A stretch of 40,823 nucleotides of DNA from Candidatus Omnitrophota bacterium (lineage in GTDB: Bacteria > Omnitrophota > Gorgyraeia > Gorgyraeales > Gorgyraeaceae), in assembly GCA_026387235.1 (NCBI GenBank), contig JAPLMD010000024.1, forward strand, positions 1 through 40,823, read 5' to 3'. The notes under the pieces were generated by a model that did no database searches, was not told the DNA's origin, and saw only the letters and a program-made list of their open reading frames with translations. A program made the translations under genes and the position numbers. Shown here piece after piece: positions 15,009 through 27,764 of this stretch; positions within the stretch are counted from its first letter, which is position 1, and each line of letters starts with the position of its first letter.

Positions 15009-15638
15009 TTATTTATATATGAACCCGGTCTCTTTGGACCAGAATAAAAGATCCAGTTCATCCATGGGAATATTTATCTTTTTGCAGAACTTCCCAAGTT
15101 TATTTTCTATATCAAGGTATTCTTTTTTAGTCAATGATTTCGGGATCTCGTTTATCACGCCATAATTTTTCAAGTTCTTGAGTATATGCACATCCAGTAT
15201 CGCGAGATCTTTCCCAAAACCTATATTTCTTAAAAAATGGCTGGCCTCTTTATAGCCTATACCCTTTACATTTTCAACAAGCCATTCCCTGGTTTTAAAT
15301 ATATCCTTTTGGTCTATATAATCTTTTATTGAGAAACAACCGTTCTTTTTGAATAGTCTCCTGGCATTCACGATAAACTCTGACTTTTTATTCAGAAATC
15401 TCGCCGCTTTAAGATATGGGCTTATGGCCTTTGGAGACCCGTTAAAAAGCAGGCCCTTGTTCTTTAATTCCTTTATTGCCTTGTCGCATTCAACTGCCTC
15501 TGCCTGAGGCGTCAATATGCAGAAACAAAGCTCTGAAAAAACATGCTTATCATCTTTTTTATAGCTATTCTCGAAATCCTTAAGCCTGTTTTTAATCAGT
15601 TTTTTATTCTTCCTGTAATATGCCGAAAGATTTTTCAT
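15009..15638 (-). CDS. ogg: N-glycosylase/DNA lyase, Ogg2-type 8-oxoguanine glycosylase
   Basis: 209 residues of the HhH-GPD superfamily, Ogg2 branch (best known from archaea and anaerobes). The helix-hairpin-helix reads VKGIGYKEASHFLRN, where the lysine is the predicted catalytic residue, followed by LAILDVHIL with the catalytic aspartate. There is no Fe-S loop, unlike nth. It excises 8-oxoguanine, in keeping with its position in a cluster against oxidative stress. It overlaps the upstream glutaredoxin-like gene by 4 bp. Confidence 0.85.
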   Translation of the reverse strand: MKNLSAYYRKNKKLIKNRLKDFENSYKKDDKHVFSELCFCILTPQAEAVECDKAIKELKNKGLLFNGSPKAISPYLKAARFLNKKSEFIVNARRLFKKNGCFSIKDYIDQKDIFKTREWLVENVKGIGYKEASHFLRNIGFGKDLAILDVHILKNLKNYGVINEIPKSLTKKEYLDIENKLGKFCKKINIPMDELDLLFWSKETGFIYK

Positions 15639-15868
15639 ATTCCAAGGGCTTTAGCTATGGCCTCTTTGTCAAAACCCACTATTATCCGGCCGTCTATATC
15701 CAGGACAGGCACTCCCATCTGGCCTGATTTATCCATCATCTCCTGGCTGGCCTGGCTGTTCATACCTACGTCTATATTTTCGAACTGTATATTATTTTTC
15801 TTTAAAAATTCTTTTGTCATCGCGCAATAAGAACAAGTAGAAGTGGAATATATTTTAACATTAGGCAT
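15635..15868 (-). CDS. Glutaredoxin-like protein (YruB/NrdH-type)
   Basis: 77 residues, a minimal thioredoxin fold. The redox motif CSYC is at residues 12-15 and the cis-proline lies in MGVPVLDIDG. The C-terminal IIVGFDKEAIAKAL is typical of small anaerobe glutaredoxins of the YruB group. It probably takes electrons from thioredoxin reductase and reduces protein disulfides. AGGAGG lies just upstream of the ATG. It overlaps ogg by 4 bp. Confidence 0.88.
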   Translation of the reverse strand: MPNVKIYSTSTCSYCAMTKEFLKKNNIQFENIDVGMNSQASQEMMDKSGQMGVPVLDIDGRIIVGFDKEAIAKALGI

Positions 15869-15876
15869 AGCGCCTC

Positions 15877-16446
15877 CTATTTAGATAGTGCAAGTTTTAC
15901 GCCTAACTCAAATGCCTTTTTTAAACAGCTGGGGTGATTTAAAATGCCTGCCTTCTCACCCACGCCGGAACAAAAAAGCTCTCCCTGATAATCCGCATTT
16001 ATAGTCGCGAATAAATTCTTGGCAATGGATTTTGCGTTTTCAAAAAAATCATTCCTCTTTGATCCTTCAACAGAAATAAATACAGCCTTTTTCTTTCTAT
16101 AGCCCGTATCTTTACTAAGCATATACTTCAAATGCCAGACACACTGAAATCTATCAATCATCATTTTTGTCTGAGCGCTTAAACTGCCGAAGAAAACAGG
16201 TGAAGCTAAAACCAGGATATCCGCATCTTTAATCTTCTTATACAGTTCATGCATGTCGTCATGGATCACGCACTCGCCGTCATCCCCGATACCTTCGCAT
16301 TCCTGGCATGGAGAAAATTTTAATTTATTGAGGATGACCTTTTCTATTTCAGCGCCTTTACTTCCAGCGCCTTCCAGGACTTTATCCAAAAGGATATCAG
16401 TGTTGCCGCCTATTCTAGGGCTGCCGTTTATACCTAATACTTTCAT
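15877..16446 (-). CDS. Flavodoxin-fold NAD(P)H:FMN oxidoreductase / iron-sulfur flavoprotein-like
   Basis: 189 residues from the ATG at 16446 (MKVLGINGSPR). A longer frame reaching back into the rubrerythrin gene is unlikely. GINGSPRIGGNTDILL is the FMN phosphate loop of the NADPH-dependent FMN reductase family. A Cys pair, PCQEC, at about residues 45-49 and another Cys in GECVIH resemble the compact cluster motif of iron-sulfur flavoproteins, but one cysteine of the full four may be missing. It likely passes electrons in the O2/peroxide defence chain. It starts two bases after the rubrerythrin stop. Confidence 0.8.
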   Translation of the reverse strand: MKVLGINGSPRIGGNTDILLDKVLEGAGSKGAEIEKVILNKLKFSPCQECEGIGDDGECVIHDDMHELYKKIKDADILVLASPVFFGSLSAQTKMMIDRFQCVWHLKYMLSKDTGYRKKKAVFISVEGSKRNDFFENAKSIAKNLFATINADYQGELFCSGVGEKAGILNHPSCLKKAFELGVKLALSK

Positions 16447-16448
16447 GA

Positions 16449-17021
16449 TTAATAATTCTCCGCCATTAGCTCGTAATACGCCTTTGGATGAGCGCACGCA
16501 GGGCATTTATCCGGCGCTTCCTGGCCTTCGTGCACGTAACCGCAATTGCGGCATTTCCATTTAACTGCCTTATCCTTTTTAAATACGGTCTTATCCTTCA
16601 CGTTCTTCCAGAGTTTTCTATACCTGGCTTCGTGCTGTTCCTCTACTTCTGCGATTTCTTTGAATTGATCCGCGACTTCATTTAATCCCTCTTTACGGGC
16701 AATTGCTTCAGAATCTTTGTATAGCTTTGTCCATTCCATTTTTTCGCCGTCAGCAGCTGCCTTCAGATTATCCAATGTCGCGCATATTACGCCTGCAGGA
16801 TAAGACGCCGTGATCTCCGCGTCTCCGCCTTCTAATAATTTGAAAAACCTCTTTGCGTGTTCCTTTTCAATATCAGCTGTTTCTAAAAATATTGCTGATA
16901 TCTGCTCGTAACCCTCTTTTTTCGCCGCGCCTGCAAAATAGGTGTAACGATTCCTTGCCTGCGATTCTCCGGCAAAAGCCGCTAGAAGATTTTTTTCTGT
17001 CTGACTGCCCTTTAATTTCAT
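16449..17021 (-). CDS. rbr: Rubrerythrin
   Basis: A 190-residue peroxide reductase of anaerobes. The N-terminal four-helix diiron domain shows the family motifs ESQARNRYTYFA and EKEHAKRFFKLL, then a second ExxEEQHEARY unit. The C-terminal rubredoxin domain has CRNCGYVHEGQEAPDKCPAC with both CxxC pairs. It reduces H2O2 to water using electrons from rubredoxin-type donors, here probably Hrb or the flavoprotein. It overlaps the FprA gene by 4 bp. Confidence 0.96.
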   Translation of the reverse strand: MKLKGSQTEKNLLAAFAGESQARNRYTYFAGAAKKEGYEQISAIFLETADIEKEHAKRFFKLLEGGDAEITASYPAGVICATLDNLKAAADGEKMEWTKLYKDSEAIARKEGLNEVADQFKEIAEVEEQHEARYRKLWKNVKDKTVFKKDKAVKWKCRNCGYVHEGQEAPDKCPACAHPKAYYELMAENY

Positions 17022-18184
17022 TTTATCGCCTCCTTTATTTTATTTTTAAGTTCAAATAACTCTTTCTCGTCAGGCACCCATTGCGCTTTTAACCCTTTTA
17101 CCGGCACTTCAAATTTACAAGCCTCCAAAATATTTTCTATATCGCTAACGCTCTGGCCTCCCCATCCATAAGATCCGAACGCTATGCCAATCCTGTTTTT
17201 AGGGGCGAGCCCTTTCATGTAAGTTAAAAAAGCTGACACGGAGGGAAGCATCCCATTATTCAGGGTGGGCGAACCAACGCATACATATTTCGCTTCCAAT
17301 ACAGAAGTCATGACGTCAGATATGTGGCTCGCCTGAAGATTCCTTATTTCGCACGGTATGTCTTTTTCTTCAAAAACGTCTTTTATCGCATAAGCCATGC
17401 TTTCCGTGCTATGCCACATGGTATCGTACACAATGACCGCTTTTTTATCGCATGCATTATTTGCCCATTTTTTATAACACCCTATTATATCCTTTATATT
17501 GCTCCTCCACATAAGGCCGTGGCTCGGGGCTATCATGTCTATATCCAGGCCTGAAACAGCCTCGAGGGCTTTATTTACCTGGACGCCGAACGGCAGGACA
17601 ATATTCGCGTAATATTTTGCAGCTTCATTCTTGACCCTGTCCCATCCGAACTCGTCGTCAAAGCGCTCGGTAGAGGCAATGTGCTGGCCGAACGCGTCAT
17701 TAGGCAGAAGCAGTTTTTCCTCCGGCACATAGGTAGCCATTGAATCAGGCCAATGAACCATCTGAATAAGCACAAAATTCAGATTTCTTTTTCCCAGATT
17801 AATCGAATCTCCTGTATTTACGGCCTTAAAATTCAGGTCTTTCTTAAAATGTTTTTTCAGCCCTTTTTCTCCGTTAGGAGAACAGACAATGACCGCGTTT
17901 TTAGCGATATCCAACATATCCAGGATGCTTCCGGAATGATCCATCTCAGTATGGTTAGAGATAATATAATCTATCTTGGAAGGGTCTATAACCTGCTTTA
18001 TCCTCTCCAGCATCTCATCAAACTTATAATGTTTGACAGTATCGACAAGCGCGATCTTTTTATCTACGATTAAATACGCATTATAAGTAGATCCCATCTG
18101 CGTAGAATACCCGTGAAAATTCCTCAGGTCCCAATCAATCCCTCCTACCCAGTATACGCCTTTTTTAATCTCTAACGGTTTCAT
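17018..18184 (-). CDS. fprA: Flavodiiron protein FprA (O2/NO reductase)
   Basis: 388 residues in two domains. The N-terminal metallo-beta-lactamase-like diiron domain has the H78-x-E80-x-D82 motif (NHTEMDHSG), a further ligand in VHWPDSM, and a late His in SHGLMWR. The C-terminal flavodoxin domain begins near residue 250 with VIVYDTMWHST and contains GSPTLNNGMLP. Such proteins reduce O2 to water or NO to N2O in the cytoplasm. The gene just upstream encodes Hrb, the known direct electron donor in acetogens. It overlaps rbr by 4 bp. Confidence 0.95.
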   Translation of the reverse strand: MKPLEIKKGVYWVGGIDWDLRNFHGYSTQMGSTYNAYLIVDKKIALVDTVKHYKFDEMLERIKQVIDPSKIDYIISNHTEMDHSGSILDMLDIAKNAVIVCSPNGEKGLKKHFKKDLNFKAVNTGDSINLGKRNLNFVLIQMVHWPDSMATYVPEEKLLLPNDAFGQHIASTERFDDEFGWDRVKNEAAKYYANIVLPFGVQVNKALEAVSGLDIDMIAPSHGLMWRSNIKDIIGCYKKWANNACDKKAVIVYDTMWHSTESMAYAIKDVFEEKDIPCEIRNLQASHISDVMTSVLEAKYVCVGSPTLNNGMLPSVSAFLTYMKGLAPKNRIGIAFGSYGWGGQSVSDIENILEACKFEVPVKGLKAQWVPDEKELFELKNKIKEAIK

Positions 18185-18188
18185 GATA

Positions 18189-18884
18189 TTATCCCGCTTT
18201 TACAAATTCGCTTTTCTTCGCCCCACAAACAGGGCAGGCCCACGAATCAGGTATATCCTCAAACGCGGTGCCAGGCTGTATGCCGCCGTCAGTATCTCCT
18301 GCCTCTGGGTCATATACATAATTACATACGGTGCAGATATATTTCTGCATAAACGGTTTATCCTTTTTAGCGGCTGTTTCCGATTTTATGAATGTCGGAG
18401 CTGTTTCAGGCGTTGTCCCGTGCTTTACCTGATGATAATAATCATACGTCATGGGCTTTCCTACCTTTAGAATCTTTGAATCTGTCACTTGTCCCAGGAA
18501 AATCGTATGAGTGCCGCAATCAAACTGGTTTATGACACTAGCCTCCAGGTAGCACAGCGCGTTGTCCAAAACCACCGGGCACCCTGAATCCAGTTTTATA
18601 AATTTTGTACCCTTGAATTTATCTTCCGTCTTTCCTGATTTAAATCCGAATTTCCCCACAAAAGCGAGAGGCGCATCTTCAGAAATCACTGATACGCTGA
18701 ATCTCTTGCTTGATTCAATGTATTCATGCGTGAGGTTTTTCTTATTGATGCTCACTGCCACGGTTATGGGCTCGCTCGTTATCTGAAAAAGGGTGTTTGC
18801 TATCTGGCCGTTAAAAAGCTCCCCTTTATTCGAGCTCACCACATACATCCCATAACCTATATTATGCAGGACATTCGGATCCAT
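18189..18884 (-). CDS. hrb: High-molecular-weight rubredoxin (flavin reductase-rubredoxin fusion)
   Basis: 231 residues. Residues 1-165 form an FMN-binding flavin-reductase domain ([23 protein letters not shown]). The C-terminal 55 residues are a complete rubredoxin with [12 protein letters not shown] and ACPVCGAK. As in Moorella, this fusion moves electrons from NAD(P)H through FMN and rubredoxin iron to FprA, whose gene follows four bases later. Confidence 0.93.
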
Positions 18885-18899
18885 TTTTACCCAGCTTCT

Positions 18900-20189
18900 T
18901 TATTTCTTCAATATCTTTTCAAGATCGTCTTTAGGATTAGTAACCAGCCTCAGATCAAATTTCTTCTGGAGCAAGCTAAATACATTCTTTGACAAAAACG
19001 CGGGCGGCGTAGGCCCTATATACATGCCCTTCACATTAAGATACAACAAACTCAAAAGAATCGCAACTGCTTTTTGCTCGAACCAGGAGAGGACCAGCGT
19101 TAGCGGCAAGCCGTTCACGTCTGTCTTGAATGCCCCTGCCAGCGCCTCTGCGATCTTTATAGCGGAATAAGCATTATTGCACTGGCCCACATCTATCAGC
19201 CTGGGAATACCGTCTATATCCCCGAAATCAAGTTTATTAAAACGGTATTTCCCGCACGCGAGGGTAAGTATCACGCAATCCTTCGGTACCATTTCCGCAA
19301 GTTCTGTGTAATAATTTCTGCCTGCCTTCGCCCCGTCGCAGCCGCCTATTAAAAAGAAATGTTTTATCTTGCCGGATTTCACGGCGCTTATGATTTTATC
19401 CGCCAGGCCAAGGACCGCTGTATGATGGAAACCTGTCATTATTTTCTTGCCGGGGGCTTCTTTCAGCTCAGGCAGGCTCTTTGCCTTTTTTATCAATTCG
19501 CTGAAATCCCTTCCTTCTACCCTCTTGGAACCCGGAACGCCTGTTATACTTATAGTAAATAACCTGTCCAGATAGGTATTCTCCGGAGGTATAAGAACGC
19601 AGTTCGTCGTGGCTAAAATAGCGCCCGGAAATTCCTTGAATTCCTTTTTCTGTTCCTGCCACGCCCCTCCGTAATTACCGGCAAGATGTTTGAATTTTTT
19701 AAGTTCAGGATATCCGTGCGCCGGCAGCATTTCTCCGTGCGTATAGACATTTACTCCTGTTCCTTCTGTCTGTTTTAATAATTCATATAAATCCAGAAGA
19801 TCGTGGCCTGTTATGATTATGCCCGGGCCTTTTCTGGTGCCTGTCTCTACTGCAGTCGGCACAGGGATTCCAAATCTCCGGGTATGAGCCTTATCCAGAA
19901 GCTCCATTACCTTTATATTAATATATCCGCACTTCAAAACCAGCTCAATATACTGATTAATGTCAAAACTCACGTTTGTGACTGTCTTAAATAAAGCCTC
20001 ATGCATGAACGCGTCTACTTCTGTATCTATGGCTCCTAATTCCCTCGCGTGATACGCATACGCGGCAATGCCTTTTAACCCGAACAACAATGTATCCTGC
20101 AGGCTTTGTATATCCTCATTCTTCCCGCACACGCCTACCCTGGTGCATCCTGTCCCGCCAGCTGTTTGTTCACATTGATAACAAAACAT
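18900..20189 (-). CDS. hcp: Hybrid cluster protein / hydroxylamine reductase, short (class III-like)
   Basis: 429 residues. The N-terminal cluster ligands C3-x2-C6-x8-C15-x5-C21 (MFCYQCEQTAGGTGC) are intact, and the hybrid-cluster ligands are visible in HGEMLPAHGYPEL, ATTNCVLIPP, GGCDGAK and LACGKYRFN. Classic Hcp has about 550 residues. The shorter form, which lacks one helical bundle, occurs in anaerobic thermophiles and archaea. It reduces NO (and hydroxylamine), so it protects Fe-S enzymes. The Cys-rich protein and ferredoxin upstream are the usual partners of this form. Confidence 0.95.
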   Translation of the reverse strand: MFCYQCEQTAGGTGCTRVGVCGKNEDIQSLQDTLLFGLKGIAAYAYHARELGAIDTEVDAFMHEALFKTVTNVSFDINQYIELVLKCGYINIKVMELLDKAHTRRFGIPVPTAVETGTRKGPGIIITGHDLLDLYELLKQTEGTGVNVYTHGEMLPAHGYPELKKFKHLAGNYGGAWQEQKKEFKEFPGAILATTNCVLIPPENTYLDRLFTISITGVPGSKRVEGRDFSELIKKAKSLPELKEAPGKKIMTGFHHTAVLGLADKIISAVKSGKIKHFFLIGGCDGAKAGRNYYTELAEMVPKDCVILTLACGKYRFNKLDFGDIDGIPRLIDVGQCNNAYSAIKIAEALAGAFKTDVNGLPLTLVLSWFEQKAVAILLSLLYLNVKGMYIGPTPPAFLSKNVFSLLQKKFDLRLVTNPKDDLEKILKK

Positions 20190-20191
20190 GT

Positions 20192-20431
20192 TTACCCCGC
20201 TTTCTTTTTATATCTTCCGTATTTTTCCGCGCCTACGCATTCCTTTGCCATACTGCACCAGTCCAGACAAGAAGCTGGTAAGCGCCTTTTTGCCTTTTCT
20301 CTGCAATGAGGGCATTTTGTTTCTGCCTCGTCAGACCATATCTCTATTTCTCTGCCGCATGCGCATTTTATGTTCTCAGGAAAGGGTTCTTTGATCCTTT
20401 TAGAACCCGGACAACCGTCAAAAAAACTCAT
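20192..20431 (-). CDS. Cys-rich zinc-ribbon-like protein associated with Hcp
   Basis: 79 residues starting at ATG 20431 (MSFFDGCPGSK), overlapping the ferredoxin stop by 4 bp. There are eight cysteines: C7, C23, C25, C40, C43, C55, C59 and C65. KCACG with CPHC could form one metal knuckle, and SCLDWCSMAKEC a second. I recall the family as a recurrent neighbour of Hcp in anaerobes, often misnamed phosphohydrolase. It has no hydrolase motif. It may be a cluster or zinc-binding accessory factor. A longer frame reaching to 20533 lies inside the ferredoxin gene and is not used. Confidence 0.75.
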   Translation of the reverse strand: MSFFDGCPGSKRIKEPFPENIKCACGREIEIWSDEAETKCPHCREKAKRRLPASCLDWCSMAKECVGAEKYGRYKKKAG

Positions 20432-21114
20432 TTTACATTCCCCTGAATGTCTATGGTAATTTCCTTCGCCGGTATTTTTCTGCCGGATAATTTTAATGCC
20501 TCGCCGACTATCTGGTTCAGGCCGAAACAACACGGCACTTCCATATGCGCTACTGTTACGCTTTTTAGATCACCTCTCTTGAATATTTCCGCGAGTTTTT
20601 CAACGTATAAGCCGGCATCGTCGAGCTTAGGGCAGCATATAATCAGCGTTTTCCCCCTTAAAAACTCCTGATGAAAATCAGGACATGAAAATCCGACGCA
20701 ATCCGCAGCTATCAATAAATCTGAGTTCTTCAGATACGGCGCTTCAGGTGGCACCAGCATCAGCTGCACGGGCCAGTTTGTAAGTTCGGATTGAATTTTT
20801 AAGGTTGGTTTAAACGATTTAACAGCAGTGCCAGGGCACCCGCACGCTAGCTTCTTATCCTCTTTCTTTTTTATCTCTGCCAGATGCCTTTTTGTCTCTT
20901 CTTCGTTAAATGCCGCTGACTCTCTTTCTTCAATGGTTATTGCGCCTTCGGGACAATGACCGAGGCACGCGCCAAGGCCATCGCAGTAAATCTCTTTTAC
21001 AAGAGCTGCCTTCCCGTTTATTATTTTCAACGCGCCTTCAGCGCAATTCGGGATACATAGCCCGCAGCCTGTGCATCTTTCTTCGTCTATCTTTACAATT
21101 TTACGTTTTGACAT
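20428..21114 (-). CDS. Ferredoxin-domain protein of the Hcp operon
   Basis: 228 residues. The N-terminal domain has one full cluster motif (CTGCGLCIPNCAEGA) and a second motif in which the second cysteine is replaced by leucine (CDGLGACLGHCPEGA), so the second cluster may be 3Fe-4S or altered. A linker with ACGCPG follows. The C-terminal 130 residues contain further cysteines (CVGFSCPDFH, ICCPKLDD, VPCCFG). The CxCPG plus CC pattern is usual for the ferredoxin encoded with Hcp. It is likely the electron donor to Hcp. It starts two bases after the Rrf2 gene. Confidence 0.88.
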   Translation of the reverse strand: MSKRKIVKIDEERCTGCGLCIPNCAEGALKIINGKAALVKEIYCDGLGACLGHCPEGAITIEERESAAFNEEETKRHLAEIKKKEDKKLACGCPGTAVKSFKPTLKIQSELTNWPVQLMLVPPEAPYLKNSDLLIAADCVGFSCPDFHQEFLRGKTLIICCPKLDDAGLYVEKLAEIFKRGDLKSVTVAHMEVPCCFGLNQIVGEALKLSGRKIPAKEITIDIQGNVK

Positions 21115-21116
21115 GC

Positions 21117-21515
21117 CTACCCCGCTAAAGATTTTATGGTTATCTTATCAAGTTCTTTAATAACGGTTGAATTAATAGATTTTATCTTTTTCCTTAAACT
21201 GCATACGCCTTTATTAGGGCAGGCCTTTCCCTTAAGCAGGCAATTTGTAAGATCTATGTCGCCCTGAAACACCCTCATAATGTCAGTTACCTTTATATCT
21301 CCGGGCTTCAGTAAAAAAGTAAATCCGCCTGTTTTTCCTTTACGAGAAGACAGCATCTTTTCCCCCGCTAACTTCTGCAATATCCTTCTTAAAAATACCT
21401 TTGGAAGCTTTCCTTTTGAAGCGATCTCGTCTACCGTGGCTGTCCTGCCCTTGAGCTTTGCCATATATATCAAAGCCCTGAGCGCGTAATCCGTATCCCT
21501 CGTTACAAATCTCAT
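21117..21515 (-). CDS. Rrf2-family Fe-S transcription regulator
   Basis: 132 residues. The N-terminal winged helix-turn-helix (DTDYALRALIYMAK, LPKVFLRRILQKLAGEKML, SSRKGKTGGF) is followed by three cysteines C92-x6-C99-x5-C105, the cluster-binding pattern of Rrf2 proteins such as IscR and NsrR. It is the first gene of the Hcp run and its promoter sits inside a perfect inverted repeat. It therefore probably represses itself and the downstream genes until its cluster is damaged by NO or O2. Confidence 0.92.
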   Translation of the reverse strand: MRFVTRDTDYALRALIYMAKLKGRTATVDEIASKGKLPKVFLRRILQKLAGEKMLSSRKGKTGGFTFLLKPGDIKVTDIMRVFQGDIDLTNCLLKGKACPNKGVCSLRKKIKSINSTVIKELDKITIKSLAG

Positions 21516-21527
21516 GTCCCGCCTTTC

Positions 21528-21560
21528 TTCTAAATGATATCATCTTAGTATCATTTAGAA
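21528..21560. promoter_or_regulatory. Perfect inverted-repeat operator for the Rrf2 operon
   Basis: TTCTAAATGATA (21528-21539), a 9-bp spacer, then TATCATTTAGAA (21549-21560): a perfect 12-bp inverted repeat. The spacer contains the -10 box of the promoter. The AAATGATA half-site resembles Rrf2/NsrR-type AT-rich half-sites. Confidence 0.8.
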
Positions 21561-21570
21561 AATATGTCAA
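21542..21570 (-). promoter_or_regulatory. Strong sigma-70 promoter of the Rrf2-Hcp operon
   Basis: On the minus strand TTGACA (21565-21570), exactly 17 bp, then TAAGAT (21542-21547). The Rrf2 start codon is 26 bases further on, with a GGCGGGAC ribosome binding site. Confidence 0.8.
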
Positions 21571-21602
21571 GTAAAATTTTAAAATATTTTTTTGATTTGT
21601 TT

Positions 21603-22235
21603 TTAAAAGAATGCCTCGCCTGCCTTTTTGGCAATCTTTTTAGCGGCGTCTATTTTTTGTTTTTGGATCTCCGGGCCGAGCGCGTCCATCGGCTGGCTGT
21701 TAATAAAAGTGATATCGGTTATGCCCGCTAATCCGAATACCGCTCTCAAGTATGGCTCCTGAAAATCATAGGAATGGGACGGGCTGTCAGGGCCGTAATC
21801 TCCGCCCCGGCTCGTGATAATAATCATCTTTTTATTTTTTACAAGGCCCTCCGGCCCTTTCTCGGTATATCTGAAAAGATATCTCGGCTGGAGTATTACA
21901 TCTATATAATGCTTTAAATAATACGGGATGCTGAAATTCCACATAGGAGAGCTTATGACATAGCCGTCTGCCGAAAGAAATCTTTCTATATGCTTAATAA
22001 TGTCGTTCCACGCGGGTTTTAAATCTTCAGGCAGGTCCTTCCCTCCGAGTAATACGTATTTTCCGCTCACAGCTTTCATTGTCATCGGCGGGAGCTTTTC
22101 CTTTGTAACATCCAGAGTATCCACCCTGCAATCAGGGTCATTGTTTTCCAACCCTTCAAAAAAAGCCTCTGTAACCCTGAGCGTCCTGGAATCCTCTTCT
22201 CTCGGCGTTGCGATTATGTGTAATAATTTGCTCAT
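21603..22235 (-). CDS. FMN-dependent NADH azoreductase (AzoR/acyl-carrier-phosphodiesterase-like)
   Basis: 210 residues from ATG 22235 (MSKLLHIIATPR), which has GAGAGG upstream. A GTG two codons earlier is possible. The flavodoxin-like fold shows the family signature SSPMWNFSIPYYLKHYID near residue 95 and the SRGGDYG loop near residue 143. AzoR reduces quinones and azo compounds by two electrons and is linked to electrophile and thiol stress. It lies upstream of the Rrf2 promoter, with no terminator between. Confidence 0.88.
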   Translation of the reverse strand: MSKLLHIIATPREEDSRTLRVTEAFFEGLENNDPDCRVDTLDVTKEKLPPMTMKAVSGKYVLLGGKDLPEDLKPAWNDIIKHIERFLSADGYVISSPMWNFSIPYYLKHYIDVILQPRYLFRYTEKGPEGLVKNKKMIIITSRGGDYGPDSPSHSYDFQEPYLRAVFGLAGITDITFINSQPMDALGPEIQKQKIDAAKKIAKKAGEAFF

Positions 22236-22251
22236 GCACACCTCTCTTTTA

Positions 22252-22596
22252 TTATCTTGGCGCTATTATTTCTTTTGCCAGCTTTCCGCTTATATTGCAG
22301 TAGCCCTCTACCGATATCTTATCCCCTGCCTTGGCGTCAGGTATCAGATAGCTGACTTTCTGGTTAATGTTATTGTCCTGTCTGCTTATGGCATGGCTTA
22401 TTATTTCTCCCCCGTTAAGCCCCACGTTAACCTTATAGATATAATGCTTATTAACATCGCTCACATTGTGCATGATAAGCGCTGTTAAAATTTTCGTTTT
22501 GGAATCGTATGTTATTTTTATGTCTGAAGGCGGATGAGCGTATGCGAGCGAACACATTAAAAAACTTAGAATCAAAAATATGGCTATTTTCTTCAT
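22252..22596 (-). CDS. Exported superoxide-reductase-like (neelaredoxin fold) protein
   Basis: 114 residues with a signal peptide (MKKIAIFLILSFLMCSLAYA). The mature part aligns by eye with the cytoplasmic superoxide reductase at 27.2 kb: HNVSDVNKHYIYKVNVGLNG against HPNTTAHHIRWIEIYFLPNG, and EGYCNISGKLAKEI against SSYCNIHGLWQSSKEI. The Cys iron ligand and two of the His ligand positions are kept, but the His three residues after the Cys is Ser, and the first two His positions are separated by two extra residues. Metal binding is therefore uncertain. It overlaps the RnfD-like gene by 4 bp, so the two probably work together at the membrane outer face. Confidence 0.6.
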   Translation of the reverse strand: MKKIAIFLILSFLMCSLAYAHPPSDIKITYDSKTKILTALIMHNVSDVNKHYIYKVNVGLNGGEIISHAISRQDNNINQKVSYLIPDAKAGDKISVEGYCNISGKLAKEIIAPR

Positions 22597-23327
22597 TTTC
22601 CCCTCCTCTTGTTTAATAAAGGCGTAAATAAATTAAAACAGGCCAGGGCCAATAATTCCGATTCCTTGATCCCAAGCGCGTATAAAATAAAAATCAAAGC
22701 CCCTGCGCCTGAACCGAATATTATTTTACCTGACTTTGTCATTGGCGTTGTCATCGGCTCCACCAGCATTATAAAAATAAAGAAATAATTTAAATAACCC
22801 AGTATGTTAAGAATTGGGACGGCCTGAATAACAGCCTGGCCCCCGAATAGAATAAAAGAAGCGATAAAATAACTTACGATAAGCTCCAATTTTTTTATTT
22901 TAAACGAAGCGTAAATGCCGAAAGGGGCAATGATATACCATAGATACGCGCCTTTCCATTCCGTGGAAGCCCCCAGAAGAAATACGGAAACTAAAATCCC
23001 GAATGCCGCAGGATTAAAAAAATGCCTGCCGCGAAATCTTATTATATGCTTGGAAACTATCGCAAATAAAGCTGCCAGCGCTATCAGCCCCCATTTTTCC
23101 GAACCGGATAACACGCATCCTATAATCAAGCCTGTTATGATAGAACTCTCTCCCAAGACAAATTCTTTTTTCTTTAAATAAGAGATTATGGAATCTGCCA
23201 GAATAGACACTATAACGCTGACGCATAAGCCCGATAAAAACCTGATATCTTTTTCTAAAAAGGCTATATACGCGGAGAACAGCAAAAGAAAAATGCCTAA
23301 TTGGACTTTTATTGATTTTATATTCAT
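22593..23327 (-). CDS. Orphan RnfD/NqrB-like membrane protein
   Basis: 244 residues, about nine hydrophobic helices, of the NQR2/RnfD/RnfE family. GRHFFNPAAFGILVS near residue 100 and EPMTTPMTKSGKIIFG near residue 195 are family hallmarks. In Rnf and Nqr complexes this subunit carries covalent FMN on Thr in an SGAT motif. Here I see only SGAG, so FMN attachment is doubtful. No other rnf gene (A, B, C, E, G) or apbE is present. It overlaps the exported protein gene by 4 bp. Its ribosome binding site lies in the end of a 54-base perfect palindrome. Confidence 0.75.
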   Translation of the reverse strand: MNIKSIKVQLGIFLLLFSAYIAFLEKDIRFLSGLCVSVIVSILADSIISYLKKKEFVLGESSIITGLIIGCVLSGSEKWGLIALAALFAIVSKHIIRFRGRHFFNPAAFGILVSVFLLGASTEWKGAYLWYIIAPFGIYASFKIKKLELIVSYFIASFILFGGQAVIQAVPILNILGYLNYFFIFIMLVEPMTTPMTKSGKIIFGSGAGALIFILYALGIKESELLALACFNLFTPLLNKRRGK

Positions 23328-23334
23328 GCATTAG

Positions 23335-23388
23335 ACCTTGTCCACCTGACAGGTGAGCCATCTGGCTCACCTGTCAGGTGGACAAGGT
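23335..23388. repeat. 54-base perfect palindrome between disulfide reductase and rnfD-like genes
   Basis: Two 26-base arms (23335-23360 and 23363-23388) are perfectly complementary around a two-base centre. Each arm also contains the near self-complementary CACCTGACAGGTG. It begins 6 bases after the upstream stop and ends 7 bases before the RnfD-like start, so the AAGGT ribosome binding site is buried in the stem. There is no T-tract, so it is not a standard terminator. Confidence 0.9.
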
Positions 23389-23394
23389 AAAGTA

Positions 23395-24306
23395 TTATTT
23401 CAGCCGCGCTAAATACCTGAAAGCGCCCAGCGCTGCCTTTGCGCCGTCGCCGGCAGCTATCACGATCTGTTTTTCAGGCACGCTCGTGACGTCGCCAGCG
23501 GCAAATATCCCAGGCACGTTAGTCTCATTCGCGCAATTGACCTTTATTTCGCCTCTTTCATTTTTATCCAGGTCTTTCGCGAACCACGAATTAGGCATAA
23601 GGCCTATTTCTATAAACACGCCTTTTACTTCCAGGTATTCTTTTCTGCCCCGGGTGTCTATATTTATGCCTTTAACAAATTTTTCCCCGGTTATAGATTC
23701 TACCCTTGCATTGCGCAGGATCCTGACCTTCGGGCTATTCTTTATCTTCTCCTGCATGACAGAATCGCCTGTAAAATCATCTGTTATATTTATAAGGTAA
23801 ACTTTATTGGCGATATTCATCATCTGTATGGCTGCGTCCAAGGCTGAATTGCCCCCGCCTATCACCGCAACGTCCTTTCCCGCGAAAAGCGGGCCGTCGC
23901 ACGTAACGCAGTACGCGACGCCTTTATTCTTATACTCTTTTTCTCCGCTCACGCCTATTTCTTTTGCTTTCTTGCCGGTTGCGATTATTGCTGTTTTTGC
24001 TTCGTAACCCGCTTTTGTAGTCTTGATATAAATTACCTTGTCCTTCTTCTCCAATTCTATGACCTCTTCGTTTTCCTTCATCTGAATCCCGTATTTCTGC
24101 ATGTGTTCCTGGAGCTTCGCCACAAGTTCCGGTCCTGTCACAAACTGGTAACCCGGATAATTTTCCACATCAGAGCTCCACGCTGCCTGGCCTCCCACGT
24201 CTTTGGTAATCACCAGGAAATTCATTTTCTTGCGGGCGGCGTAAACGCTGGCAGTTATGCCGGCCGGTCCGGCTCCTATAATAATAAGATCCAGAACCAT
24301 TCTCAT
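23395..24306 (-). CDS. Thioredoxin-reductase-like disulfide reductase, AhpF-like (non-NADPH) type
   Basis: 303 residues with FAD motif IIGAGPAGITAS, active-site C133-x-x-C136 (YCVTCDG) and the second nucleotide-binding motif VIGGGNSALDAA. The HRRxxxR sequence that binds the NADPH 2'-phosphate is absent. VYLINITDDFTGDSVMQEKI stands there instead, resembling the NADH-linked C-terminal domain of AhpF or the ferredoxin-linked relatives in anaerobes. So NADPH use is unlikely. It overlaps the PNPOx-like gene by 4 bp and follows the ferredoxin-oxidoreductase genes. Compare the conventional TrxB at 36.4 kb. Confidence 0.88.
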   Translation of the reverse strand: MRMVLDLIIIGAGPAGITASVYAARKKMNFLVITKDVGGQAAWSSDVENYPGYQFVTGPELVAKLQEHMQKYGIQMKENEEVIELEKKDKVIYIKTTKAGYEAKTAIIATGKKAKEIGVSGEKEYKNKGVAYCVTCDGPLFAGKDVAVIGGGNSALDAAIQMMNIANKVYLINITDDFTGDSVMQEKIKNSPKVRILRNARVESITGEKFVKGINIDTRGRKEYLEVKGVFIEIGLMPNSWFAKDLDKNERGEIKVNCANETNVPGIFAAGDVTSVPEKQIVIAAGDGAKAALGAFRYLARLK

Positions 24307-24767
24307 GCCTTTCTTTTTATATGCCAGGGAATGAGGTCTATAACCTCGTCAACGTCTACCGCTATCAGGTACTCGGGCCCGGGCAGAAGCGCCTCAGGAT
24401 GAGTTGCATGGCCCTTTTCTCCCCGCACATTCTTTAAAAGCCTGTGCGATATCCTGCTCGTGATCTTATTTTCCCATAATTTTAATATGCGCTCATTGAC
24501 CTTATTCTTCGGCACTATCTTCGCCTTTCCTTTAAGGCAATATCCCGTGAATTTATGCTCGTCAACAGCGGTTATGCTTATGGCCGGATTATTTTTAAGA
24601 TTTTCATATGTCCCTGCCATGTAAAGGTCCAGAAGATAGGCCTTGCCGGATTCATCTATCTCCACTATGCCTTTACATGAATTATGCGGGTACCCTTTTT
24701 TATCGATGGTGGATATTATCGCGAAATGCTGGTTATGAAAAAATTGAACAATATCAGGCTTTATCAT
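24303..24767 (-). CDS. Pyridoxamine 5'-phosphate oxidase-family flavin-binding protein
   Basis: 154 residues from ATG 24767 (MIKPDIVQFF), which overlaps the korB stop by 14 bp. The split-barrel fold typical of the family is shown by AIISTIDKKGYPHNS near residue 17 and by AGTYENLKNNPAISITAVDE. There is no PdxH-specific signature, so it is one of the general FMN- or F420-binding proteins. It may be a redox protein in the ferredoxin-linked operon. The longer frame to 24815 is inside korB and is rejected. Confidence 0.8.
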   Translation of the reverse strand: MIKPDIVQFFHNQHFAIISTIDKKGYPHNSCKGIVEIDESGKAYLLDLYMAGTYENLKNNPAISITAVDEHKFTGYCLKGKAKIVPKNKVNERILKLWENKITSRISHRLLKNVRGEKGHATHPEALLPGPEYLIAVDVDEVIDLIPWHIKRKA

Positions 24768-25533
24768 TTGACGGTCTCTTTTTATAAAATACCCCGAGTG
24801 GTATTTTGGAATCAATATTATAATCCCATTCCCTTATTTTTTCCATGGCTTGCTTGTAGTCTCCCGGGTCGTGGTCTTTTAATTCATAGACCCTTTTATT
24901 ATAATAATCGTACATATTGAAAAACGTGACGCACACCTGAAGAACATCCACCAGGCTGAAACCTTCATGCGCAAGCGCTTCTTTGAATATCTTTTTGAGA
25001 AATTCTATACCGTGCGAATAACCTCTCGCTATAAAACCCGCCTTGCCGGCCATCATCAGTTCAAGCGGATTTATAGGCAGTTCTTTGGTGCCGGCCGGCG
25101 TGGAGCGGCCCTTGAAGCCTAAAGGCGACGTGGGCGTATACTGCCCCGTGGTAAGCCCGTAGACCCTGTTATTATGGATTATAATATTTATATCGATGCC
25201 TCTTTTTGCCGCGAATATCAGATGTTCCAGGCCTTCTCCGTAAGTATCGCCGTCGCCTGCAAAACCTATCACCTTCAGTTTTGGATTCGCAATCTTTATA
25301 GCCTCGCACACAGGCACCACCCGACCGTGCAGGGAATAGAAGCTGTTCACATTAAGATAATCGGCTATTTTCGCGTGGCAGCCTATGCCGGAAACAATTA
25401 CTATATTTTCGGCCGGCAGGCCCTCTTCGATCAATTCGCCCAATACCGCCTTTATTGAATTCAGTATCGCAAAATTCCCGCATCCCGGGCACCACGTATT
25501 CTTCGCGTATGTGGCTAAATTAACATTTTTCAT
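24754..25533 (-). CDS. 2-oxoacid:ferredoxin oxidoreductase, beta subunit (TPP-binding)
   Basis: 259 residues. C15-x-x-C18 (WCPGCGNF) supplies cluster ligands. The thiamine diphosphate site reads GFAGDGDTYGEGLEHL, followed by HNNRVYGLTTGQYTPTS. With the alpha/gamma fusion two bases away it makes the enzyme that converts a 2-oxoacid plus CoA to acyl-CoA, CO2 and reduced ferredoxin. Whether the substrate is 2-oxoglutarate, pyruvate or a branched-chain acid cannot be told. A KorB-like size and motif pattern favour 2-oxoglutarate or isovalerate types. Confidence 0.93.
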   Translation of the reverse strand: MKNVNLATYAKNTWCPGCGNFAILNSIKAVLGELIEEGLPAENIVIVSGIGCHAKIADYLNVNSFYSLHGRVVPVCEAIKIANPKLKVIGFAGDGDTYGEGLEHLIFAAKRGIDINIIIHNNRVYGLTTGQYTPTSPLGFKGRSTPAGTKELPINPLELMMAGKAGFIARGYSHGIEFLKKIFKEALAHEGFSLVDVLQVCVTFFNMYDYYNKRVYELKDHDPGDYKQAMEKIREWDYNIDSKIPLGVFYKKRPSNDKA

Positions 25534-25535
25534 CG

Positions 25536-27194
25536 TCAGCCCTGTAAACTTACCTGCAGTTTTTGCTCCAGCTCGTCCAGCGAGAACGGCCTTCCGTCGT
25601 ATTTTAATATTCTTTCATCCGCATTTATGCCATAACATTTAACAAAATCTGCCAGTTGTCCCGTAGCATTATTCTCAACGCATATTATCTTTTTGACTCC
25701 CCTTAGCGCTTCTTTGAATTGTTTCAAAGGAAACGGCGAAAACACGATCGGCTGCACGACTCTTAAGCCGAGTTTCTCGCCAGCCTCAACGCATACCCCT
25801 TTATTGGACCCCCAGAATAAAAGAGCGGTCGGCGAATCTTTACTGCCGTAAATTTTTACAGTTTCATATTGTTCCAATTCTTCGAGGAGATAACCGGCCT
25901 TGCGGAGCCTTTTATCCTGCATCATAACAGTCAGGTCTTTATCCTCGGTAGTCACGCCGAATTCGTCATGTTCATAACTGTTGACTTTTACGATAGCGCC
26001 TTTATCGGAAGGAAACGCGAGAGGAGAAATCCCGTTTTTAGTATTTTGATATCTTTTATATTCGCTCTTTTTATCCCACAACAAAGGTCCGCGGCTGTCT
26101 ATTTTTCCGGCCAAATCCTCATCAAAACTATATGTCCCTTCATTCAAGGTCTTGTCGCAGAGAATAATCGCGGGTATCTGATATTTCCACGCCATGTTTA
26201 AAGAAACAGCTGACCAGTAATAAGCCTCTTCCGCGTCCCCGGGCGCCGCTACAAAACGGCTGAATTCCCCCTGGCCTGCGCTCAAAGCAAAATTTAATTC
26301 TGTCTGGCCCGTATAAGTAGGAAGGCCTGTGCTTGGGCCCGGCCTTTGGCCAAGTAATACTACCACAGGCAGCTCTGCCATCCCGCTGAAACTCAGCCCT
26401 TCTGTCATCAGGCAAAACCCTCCGCCAGACGTCCCCACCGCAACCCTTTCGCCGGCGTATGAAAAACCCATTGCCATGAGCATCACCGCTATCTCATTTT
26501 CAGGGTGAATCACTTTTAACGAAAACTCTTCCGCAGCCCCTGCCAAAAAATGCAGCACCCCGGAACTGGGCGTCATAGGATAAGCAATGTACGTCTTCAT
26601 CCCCCCTTTAATAAGGCCCCGGCCTATTGCCTCGCTTCCCGTGACCAGAGGCAATATTTTTTGTTTCAATTTTTCTATTTTAATAAGCTCTTTTGCTTCG
26701 CTGAACCCGCGGAATGCCACTTTAAGATTTAAATCTATTTCCCTGGACATATCTTTTCTAAAAACATTTTCCATCGCGTCTTTATCTACGCCGATAGCCC
26801 TGCACATCGCTCCTATGATGCAGGAATTGCGCATCAAGTCAAGGCCGCCTGTCTCTTTTATTATAGCGCCGACCGGAATGCCTGTTCCTTTATCCGACTT
26901 GACTGAATTTGAATCGTAGATGATGATGGATTTATCGCTTAGCCTGGATTTGTGAAAATCAATGCTGTCCTGGTTTAACGCGAGGAGTATATCTACCGCA
27001 TCCTTGTGAGCGGCTATTTTATCTCCGGAGCATCTTATTATTGAAAAGGTATGCCCGCCTCTTATTACAGAAGGATAATCTCTGTAGATATAAACGCGGT
27101 ATCCAAGCGAGGCCAGAATGTCTCCGATAATCAGGCTTGATTTATCGATACCATCCCCTGCTCTTCCGGCGATAAGTATTGAAAGGTTGTCCAT
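25536..27194 (-). CDS. 2-oxoacid:ferredoxin oxidoreductase, fused gamma-alpha subunit
   Basis: 552 residues. Residues 1-190 are the gamma domain (AGRAGDGIDKSSLIIGDIL, YPSVIRGGHTF). Residues 195-552 are the alpha domain (GSEAIGRGLIKGG, YPMTPSSGVLHFLA, GTSGGGFCLMTEGLSFSG, GQRPGPSTGLPTYTGQ). The gamma-alpha fusion with a separate beta subunit is the KorAB layout. It generates the low-potential ferredoxin that likely feeds the neighbouring reductases. No delta (8-Fe ferredoxin) subunit gene is adjacent. The beta gene follows after two bases. Confidence 0.93.
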   Translation of the reverse strand: MDNLSILIAGRAGDGIDKSSLIIGDILASLGYRVYIYRDYPSVIRGGHTFSIIRCSGDKIAAHKDAVDILLALNQDSIDFHKSRLSDKSIIIYDSNSVKSDKGTGIPVGAIIKETGGLDLMRNSCIIGAMCRAIGVDKDAMENVFRKDMSREIDLNLKVAFRGFSEAKELIKIEKLKQKILPLVTGSEAIGRGLIKGGMKTYIAYPMTPSSGVLHFLAGAAEEFSLKVIHPENEIAVMLMAMGFSYAGERVAVGTSGGGFCLMTEGLSFSGMAELPVVVLLGQRPGPSTGLPTYTGQTELNFALSAGQGEFSRFVAAPGDAEEAYYWSAVSLNMAWKYQIPAIILCDKTLNEGTYSFDEDLAGKIDSRGPLLWDKKSEYKRYQNTKNGISPLAFPSDKGAIVKVNSYEHDEFGVTTEDKDLTVMMQDKRLRKAGYLLEELEQYETVKIYGSKDSPTALLFWGSNKGVCVEAGEKLGLRVVQPIVFSPFPLKQFKEALRGVKKIICVENNATGQLADFVKCYGINADERILKYDGRPFSLDELEQKLQVSLQG

Positions 27195-27205
27195 AAATCC
27201 GGCTT

Positions 27206-27601
27206 TTATTCCACTGCTATTTCTTTAGAGCTCTGCCAAAGGCCGTGTATGTTGCAATAAGAGGAGGCCAAAATCGCGCCGGACTTTTCTGTTTTAAATT
27301 TAAGATTTACTTCCGGGGCAGTGTAAACAGTGCTTGTATCCGGCCCCTGGGCTGACTCTCCGTGCGACGTAAACTCAAACTTCCCTATCTGGCATGGAAA
27401 TTTCTCTCCGTTCGGTAAAAAATAAATCTCGATCCAGCGTATATGATGGGCTGTGGTATTCGGATGGGCAATTTCTTTTCCAACGCTTGCTTTAACAGTA
27501 ACCGCTTCGCCTTTTTTTATCTTTTCAGGCGCATCTATAACAGGCGCGTGTTTTTCCTTTTTCCAATCAGCGCTCTGCAATAAATCTTTTAATTCTGCCA
27601 T
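27206..27601 (-). CDS. sor: Superoxide reductase (neelaredoxin, class II)
   Basis: 131 residues from ATG 27601, which has AGGAGG just upstream. A longer start 39 bp earlier overlaps the rubredoxin gene and is not used. The 1Fe catalytic centre ligands are all visible: EKH with the first His near residue 18, HPNTTAHH with two more, and YCNIHG with the Cys and last His near the C-terminus. The glutamate in GKE is the usual sixth ligand. There is no N-terminal desulforedoxin domain. It reduces superoxide to H2O2 in the cytoplasm, with rubredoxin from the adjacent gene as donor. Confidence 0.95.
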   Translation of the reverse strand: MAELKDLLQSADWKKEKHAPVIDAPEKIKKGEAVTVKASVGKEIAHPNTTAHHIRWIEIYFLPNGEKFPCQIGKFEFTSHGESAQGPDTSTVYTAPEVNLKFKTEKSGAILASSYCNIHGLWQSSKEIAVE

Positions 27602-27626
27602 AACCGCCTCCTTGCTGCTTATTGAA

Positions 27627-27764
27627 TCATAATTCTTCAAACTGGTCTTTACCTACTCCGCACTCAGGACACACCCAATCCTCCGGCAGATCCTGGAACG
27701 CCACGTTGTTATTCTCCTCAGGGTCATATATGTAACCGCATACAATACACCTGTATTTTTTCAT
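27627..27764 (-). CDS. rub: Rubredoxin (45 aa)
   Basis: A 45-residue protein too short for the usual cut-off but unmistakable: [14 protein letters not shown] at the start and [17 protein letters not shown] at the end, with iron ligands C6, C9, C32 and C35. The loop between the two knuckles is a little shorter than in standard rubredoxins of 52-54 residues. GGAGGTGC lies seven bases before the ATG. It is placed 25 bp before the superoxide reductase gene and should be its electron donor. Confidence 0.93.

Follow-up and report, generated by a model that had tools for sequence, protein, structure and literature searches.

A stand-alone RnfD-like membrane protein coupled to an exported relative of superoxide reductase in Omnitrophota: a candidate redox unit of the cell envelope

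A genome of Candidatus Omnitrophota (1.5 Mb, 95% completeness) carries two overlapping genes that encode a membrane protein resembling RnfD and NqrB and a small exported protein related to superoxide reductase (SOR). The fold, the ancestry, and the coupling of the genes are well supported; the conservation of putative metal ligands, the exchange of partners, and the neighborhood of stress genes are observed directly. The best overall explanation is that the pair is a minimal conduit across the envelope, serving an SOR-derived metalloprotein that would reduce an oxidant there. Our belief in this explanation and our doubt of it are about equally strong. No description of such a pair was found in the open-access literature.

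Two coupled genes

The window analyzed here is a stretch of 40,823 nucleotides; the features that matter to the argument are collected in Table 1.

Table 1. Features of the gene pair and its surroundings, in coordinates of the window. Fractions over 89 count members of the aligned exported family.
Feature	Coordinates	Strand	Evidence or conservation
Exported SOR-like protein, 114 aa	22252..22596	-	ORF; AF2; Foldseek; profile match to SOR
RnfD/NqrB-like membrane protein, 244 aa	22593..23327	-	PF03116; AF2; Foldseek; RnfD/RsxD alignment
Shine-Dalgarno AGGAGGGG of exported gene, within the end of the membrane gene	22600..22607	-	
Predicted signal peptide, residues 1-20, A-Y-A before His21	22537..22596	-	AxA-H pattern in homologues
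His21, aligned with first SOR ligand; predicted first mature residue	22534..22536	-	
His43, aligned with second SOR ligand; invariant	22468..22470	-	89/89
His51, aligned with third SOR ligand	22444..22446	-	87/89
Cys100, aligned with axial Cys ligand	22297..22299	-	88/89
Ser103, replaces fourth SOR His ligand	22288..22290	-	His in 0/89
Cytoplasmic superoxide reductase, neelaredoxin type	27206..27640	-	PF01880 E 6.8e-33; near pair in 16/39 loci
Rrf2-type regulator	21117..21515	-	PF02082 E 5.5e-30; recurs close to pair
Hybrid cluster protein (Prismane)	18900..20189	-	PF03063 E 8.8e-138; recurs near pair

Both reading frames lie where the original prediction had placed them, and the overlap that it described is also present. 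Here, the membrane gene and the exported gene share four nucleotides (ATGA), and a good Shine-Dalgarno sequence, AGGAGGGG, stands ahead of the exported gene.

When both genes are compared with those of the nearest relative (L002), substitutions are strongly skewed to synonymous sites; for the exported gene, pN is 0.10 and pS is 0.79. A profile search finds exported homologues in 115 of 384 Omnitrophota genomes, and a single-sequence search gives 111. With homologues so widespread and pN so far below pS, the pair is, on the evidence of sequence, more than a product of chance.

The two genes are adjacent in approximately 36 Omnitrophota loci, 22 of them with the four-nucleotide overlap. The original prediction had been made to depend on conservation of the pair outside this genome. 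Such conservation is found across nine GTDB families within Omnitrophota (f1, f8, f18, f20, f32, f35, f36, f53, and f64); f53 and f64 lie outside the class of the window, and the pair thus occurs in more than one class. Co-occurrence tells the same story, as 44 of the 62 genomes that encode the membrane protein also encode the exported one, where about 19 would be expected. The named relatives are all Candidatus Omnitrophota, save one recorded as "bacterium." As to conservation outside Omnitrophota, a single-sequence scan gave only nine loci, apparently all from Omnitrophota, and a scan of plasmids gave no match. Among distant homologues of the exported protein, an RnfD-like partner is absent, which weighs against the explanation preferred here.

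Between a thioredoxin-reductase-like gene and the RnfD-like gene lie two perfectly matching 26-nt arms, inverted about a loop of 2 nt (23335-23388). Some 18 further palindromic copies are dispersed in the genome, suggesting an element of the REP or MITE type.

The exported protein and its putative metal site

The case for common ancestry with SOR comes from comparison of profiles. When the mature part of the 89 aligned homologues was compared with SOR using hhalign, the match extended over the full mature length (probability 94.7%, E 5.9e-8), with the N-terminal part aligned less confidently. In this alignment, the columns (exported/SOR) pair H21 with H31, P23 with P33, H43 with H59, H51 with H65, C100 with C129, and S103 with H132, with two extra residues before H51. 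This bears out an alignment with the cytoplasmic SOR that had been made by eye, including its serine in place of the last histidine and its two-residue insertion. Individual members speak for the same relationship. Desulfoferrodox is matched by 41 of the 89 (best E 1.9e-5) and TIGR00332 by 42, more than are touched by any other family. These family-wide matches, together with the hhalign result, rule out a chance resemblance.

The protein of the window, taken by itself, is under every curated family cut-off (DUF6152 and TIGR00332 far below) and gives no match to PF01880 at E 1. The search against PF01880 proposed as a check has therefore a divided outcome, negative for the single protein and positive for the family profile. 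One family member (G163:C102, locus L095) just reaches the PF01880 cut-off. Weak single matches to DUF6152, PI3K-C2, and a biofilm protein were set aside, as the wider family does not support them.

The AF2 model (pLDDT 93.5) presents, after the signal peptide, a seven-strand beta-sandwich of about 94 amino acids. Foldseek matches it to SOR structures with E values from 2.6e-3 to 2.5e-2, and to Giardia SOR with TM scores of 0.59/0.69. The neelaredoxin fold that had been anticipated is thus seen in the model as a fold of the SOR/SoxZ type. Together, profiles and model make common ancestry with SOR and a neelaredoxin-type fold well supported.

Few positions are conserved in the family, and these are mostly the putative ligands. 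Besides those counted in Table 1, A20 is found in 83 of the 89 sequences, H21 in 84, and P23 and G104 in all. At position 103, serine is found in 38 of the 39 members that are paired with an RnfD-like gene. The exported family therefore keeps three histidines and a cysteine of the Fe(His)4Cys ligand set, and the Glu-Lys that precedes the first histidine in SOR is missing from the exported protein. Because the fourth histidine and the Glu-Lys are absent, SOR-type catalysis is not assured. Nor should the protein be classed as an SOR, since it departs from the Fe(His)4Cys set and falls below the PF01880 cut-off.

The pattern A/V/S-x-A is the classical signature of cleavage by signal peptidase I. 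In nearly all homologues, this pattern stands directly ahead of H21. Even the protein of locus L006, whose leader is quite different and Tat-like, has SA before HPP. Because the motif abuts H21 in almost every homologue, the mature protein probably starts with H21. The placement of a signal-peptidase motif immediately before the first histidine ligand, in nearly all members, is new here as a feature read from sequence.

Another Omnitrophota class encodes an exported SOR-like protein of a different kind, which bears HPM and CSKHG motifs (L170:139-588).

The membrane protein

The membrane protein is, by profile and by predicted fold, a true relative of RnfD and NqrB. It scores 71 bits against PF03116 (NQR2_RnfD_RnfE), for which the Pfam cut-off is 27.7. 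Its AF2 model (pLDDT 92.5) superimposes on RnfD structures with a Foldseek TMq of approximately 0.80.

Much that usually accompanies such a protein is missing. When the protein is aligned with E. coli RsxD and with the full RnfD encoded elsewhere in the genome, the segment with the threonine that carries covalent FMN proves to be absent. The protein consists of the membrane domain only, without the C-terminal NAD-binding domain PF00175. In place of an FMN-bind partner (NqrC/RnfG-type), it has the SOR-like protein, and no other Rnf or Nqr subunit is encoded near its gene. The original prediction had noted an orphan with no other rnf subunit around it. This holds for the window; a separate, normal and complete rnf cluster, with a full-length RnfD, sits on another contig. 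That complete cluster, and the conservation of the gene with a different partner, led us to reject the view that the gene is a remnant of an Rnf operon.

Because it has neither a covalent-FMN site nor an rnf operon, the membrane protein should not be classed as an Rnf subunit. The covalent-FMN site is likewise not conserved in the transmembrane subunits of Nqr/Rnf-like systems (PMC10979944). Canonical RnfD also binds riboflavin, nearer to the cytoplasmic side (PMC12174285).

Partners and neighbors

The exported partner of the membrane protein is SOR-like at 39 loci, a CuA cupredoxin at 11, and an exported MsrAB at one. Membrane genes that have no SOR-like neighbor are usually coupled to the exported cupredoxin, which carries the CuA motif CSVYCGxGHxxM; those 11 loci lie mostly beside CusA, CsoR, or YHS genes. 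The tree of the membrane proteins requires several changes of partner. This exchange is the main support for a role in electron transfer, which it favors because the partners exchanged (CuA cupredoxin, MsrAB, and a redoxin) are all redox proteins. To this extent it also favors the two-gene system with outward electron flow that had been proposed, in which the flow itself is our inference.

Several of these loci deserve mention in their own right. At L182, L183, L187, L188, L190, L191, L193, L195, and others, the RnfD-like gene is translationally coupled to a CuA-type cupredoxin gene, some of whose products bear a YHS domain; these are copper-efflux neighborhoods. Judged by sequence, this is seemingly a second undescribed pair. 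At L186:3986-5926, an MsrA-MsrB fusion that is probably exported is encoded immediately before the RnfD-like protein; a Rieske-like gene and an SOR gene adjoin the two. On a Metabacillus plasmid (L175:3339-4726), a gene for a membrane-anchored redoxin overlaps the RnfD-like gene. The exchange runs in the other direction as well: in four loci (L048, L010, L055, and L063), DoxX replaces the RnfD-like partner, and its gene overlaps the exported SOR-like gene. This replacement, too, favors a membrane protein that hands electrons outward to an exported redox protein.

The surroundings of the pair, in the window and in relatives, include genes for SOR, Rrf2, hybrid cluster protein (HCP), FprA, a rubredoxin-type flavoprotein, rubrerythrin, and ferredoxin. 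Among the 39 pair loci, Rrf2 is a neighbor in 16 and HCP in 11, SOR being counted in Table 1; these counts are not independent, as several loci come from one genus, and they span at least the families f1, f8, f36, and f42. The recurrence of these genes points to stress by O2 or NO. The cytoplasmic SOR is the only match to PF01880 in the genome.

In the window, genes for coping with redox stress are densely packed over positions 15009-27640: glutaredoxin, FMN reductase, rubrerythrin, FprA, flavin reductase-rubredoxin, HCP, ferredoxin, Rrf2, SOR, and 2-oxoacid:ferredoxin oxidoreductase.

Proposed function

The two genes may encode a minimal trans-envelope redox unit. Here, the RnfD-like protein would draw electrons from the side of the cytosol or of the membrane and deliver them to its exported partner, probably by way of a flavin that it binds non-covalently. 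Electron flow through the membrane protein is likely; its outward direction is the part that we infer. The exported protein, a diverged SOR, would serve as the terminal metalloprotein, with a predicted metal site built from His43, His51, Cys100, and His21. Signal peptidase would expose His21 as the mature N-terminus, and the free amine so created could stand in for the fourth histidine.

The unit would most likely reduce superoxide or a related oxidant, derived from O2 or NO, within the envelope, alongside other proteins encoded in this region, namely the cytoplasmic SOR, HCP, FprA, and rubrerythrin. Superoxide itself is a plausible substrate, proposed with caution because the fourth histidine ligand is lost. 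A broader reading would make the flavinylation-independent RnfD module a general conduit with an exchangeable exported end, one version of which carries an SOR-derived 3His-1Cys center with an N-terminal histidine for defense against oxidants in the envelope. This we offer tentatively, leaning slightly against it.

If true, these proposals would provide an envelope counterpart to the cytoplasmic SOR in anaerobes able to live at oxic-anoxic interfaces, and an envelope enzyme powered across the membrane by just two genes. They would provide a case where a metal site was remade around an N-terminus cut by signal peptidase. The findings also show that stand-alone RnfD-like proteins, for which Rnf subunit is the usual annotation, are parts of systems of their own, and they provide an uncurated protein family with a function that can be tested.

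Alternative explanations

The pair might instead handle copper or another metal. The exported protein would then be a copper binder with an N-terminal histidine, the RnfD-like protein would reduce or move the metal, and the oxidative-stress neighbors would reflect the toxicity of copper. The predicted N-terminal histidine is, of course, what is seen in CopC and the anglerases (PMC12537917). Further, where sister membrane proteins have a CuA cupredoxin as partner, CusA (7/11) and CsoR (3/11) are encoded alongside, and some distant exported homologues adjoin RND or CopA genes. Around the SOR-like pairs themselves, a minority of loci have copper or YHS-permease genes nearby (YHS-ArsP permease in 6 of 39, CopA in 4, CusA in 3), which keeps this explanation alive. 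However, SOR, HCP, and Rrf2 are commoner there than copper genes, no copper gene lies next to the pair in the window, and both the ligand set and the fold of the exported protein derive from SOR. On balance, we regard a role in metal handling, the foremost of the rival explanations, as unlikely.

Two other explanations begin from structure. RnfD groups structurally with transporters of urea and ammonium, Foldseek lists urea transporters and AmtB weakly among its matches, and the covalent flavin site is absent from the membrane protein; this might suggest a channel or transporter with an exported substrate-binding or regulatory subunit, or else a flow of electrons inward. The matches to RnfD and NqrB are far stronger (E 1.7e-8 versus 0.2), and every exchanged partner, whether CuA, MsrAB, or redoxin, is a redox protein, making these alternatives improbable. 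For the exported protein, the best Foldseek match is SoxYZ, with SoxZ as close as SOR or slightly closer, and members of the family touch PF08770 (16 of 89) and TIGR04490 (26). It might, then, be a SoxZ-like sulfur carrier, or a purely structural Ig-like protein free of metal. Against this, SOR beats SoxZ both in the number of members matched and in E values, and the histidine and cysteine ligands are the most conserved residues. SoxY was not found in the genome, and an identity as SoxYZ was rejected. We consider this explanation very improbable.

Comparison with known systems

The reading that we prefer, a conduit of two genes ending in an SOR-derived metalloprotein, has partial counterparts. 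With SOR and neelaredoxin (PF01880), among which Tat-exported SORs exist (PMC3116461), the exported protein shares the fold and the motif HxP...H...H...C..xG. It differs in having neither the fourth histidine nor the Glu-Lys, in a first histidine that is the predicted mature N-terminus, and in its partner membrane gene.

In its working, the pair most likely resembles the Nqr/Rnf-like conduits and would end in a metalloprotein. The two-subunit flavinylation systems of the Nqr/Rnf-like type (PMC8238504, PMC10979944) likewise combine an NqrB/RnfD-type subunit without covalent flavin and an exported redox protein. Those systems carry an NAD-binding domain and have an FMN-bind protein as partner (PMC10979944), whereas here there is no PF00175, no FMN-bind/NqrC protein, and no adjacent ApbE, and the exported partner is a predicted metalloprotein. 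The RnfD of canonical Rnf shares with the membrane protein its fold, the NPA motif, and the motif xxTxP...FG; the SSATPL segment for covalent FMN is missing here, and the gene lies outside an rnf operon.

In the N-terminal-histidine (histidine brace) metalloproteins CopC, the anglerases, and DUF4198, cleavage is likewise predicted right before a conserved histidine, and the mature proteins of CopC and other "signal-strapped" metalloproteins begin with histidine (PMC12537917). Unlike these, the exported protein is derived from SOR and would add a cysteine ligand and two further histidines. The DoxX-SodA-SseA complex of Mycobacterium (PMC6930017) also joins a small membrane protein to an enzyme that removes superoxide, and DoxX is the partner here in the four loci noted above; the enzyme is a different one, and the main membrane partner in Omnitrophota is RnfD-like.
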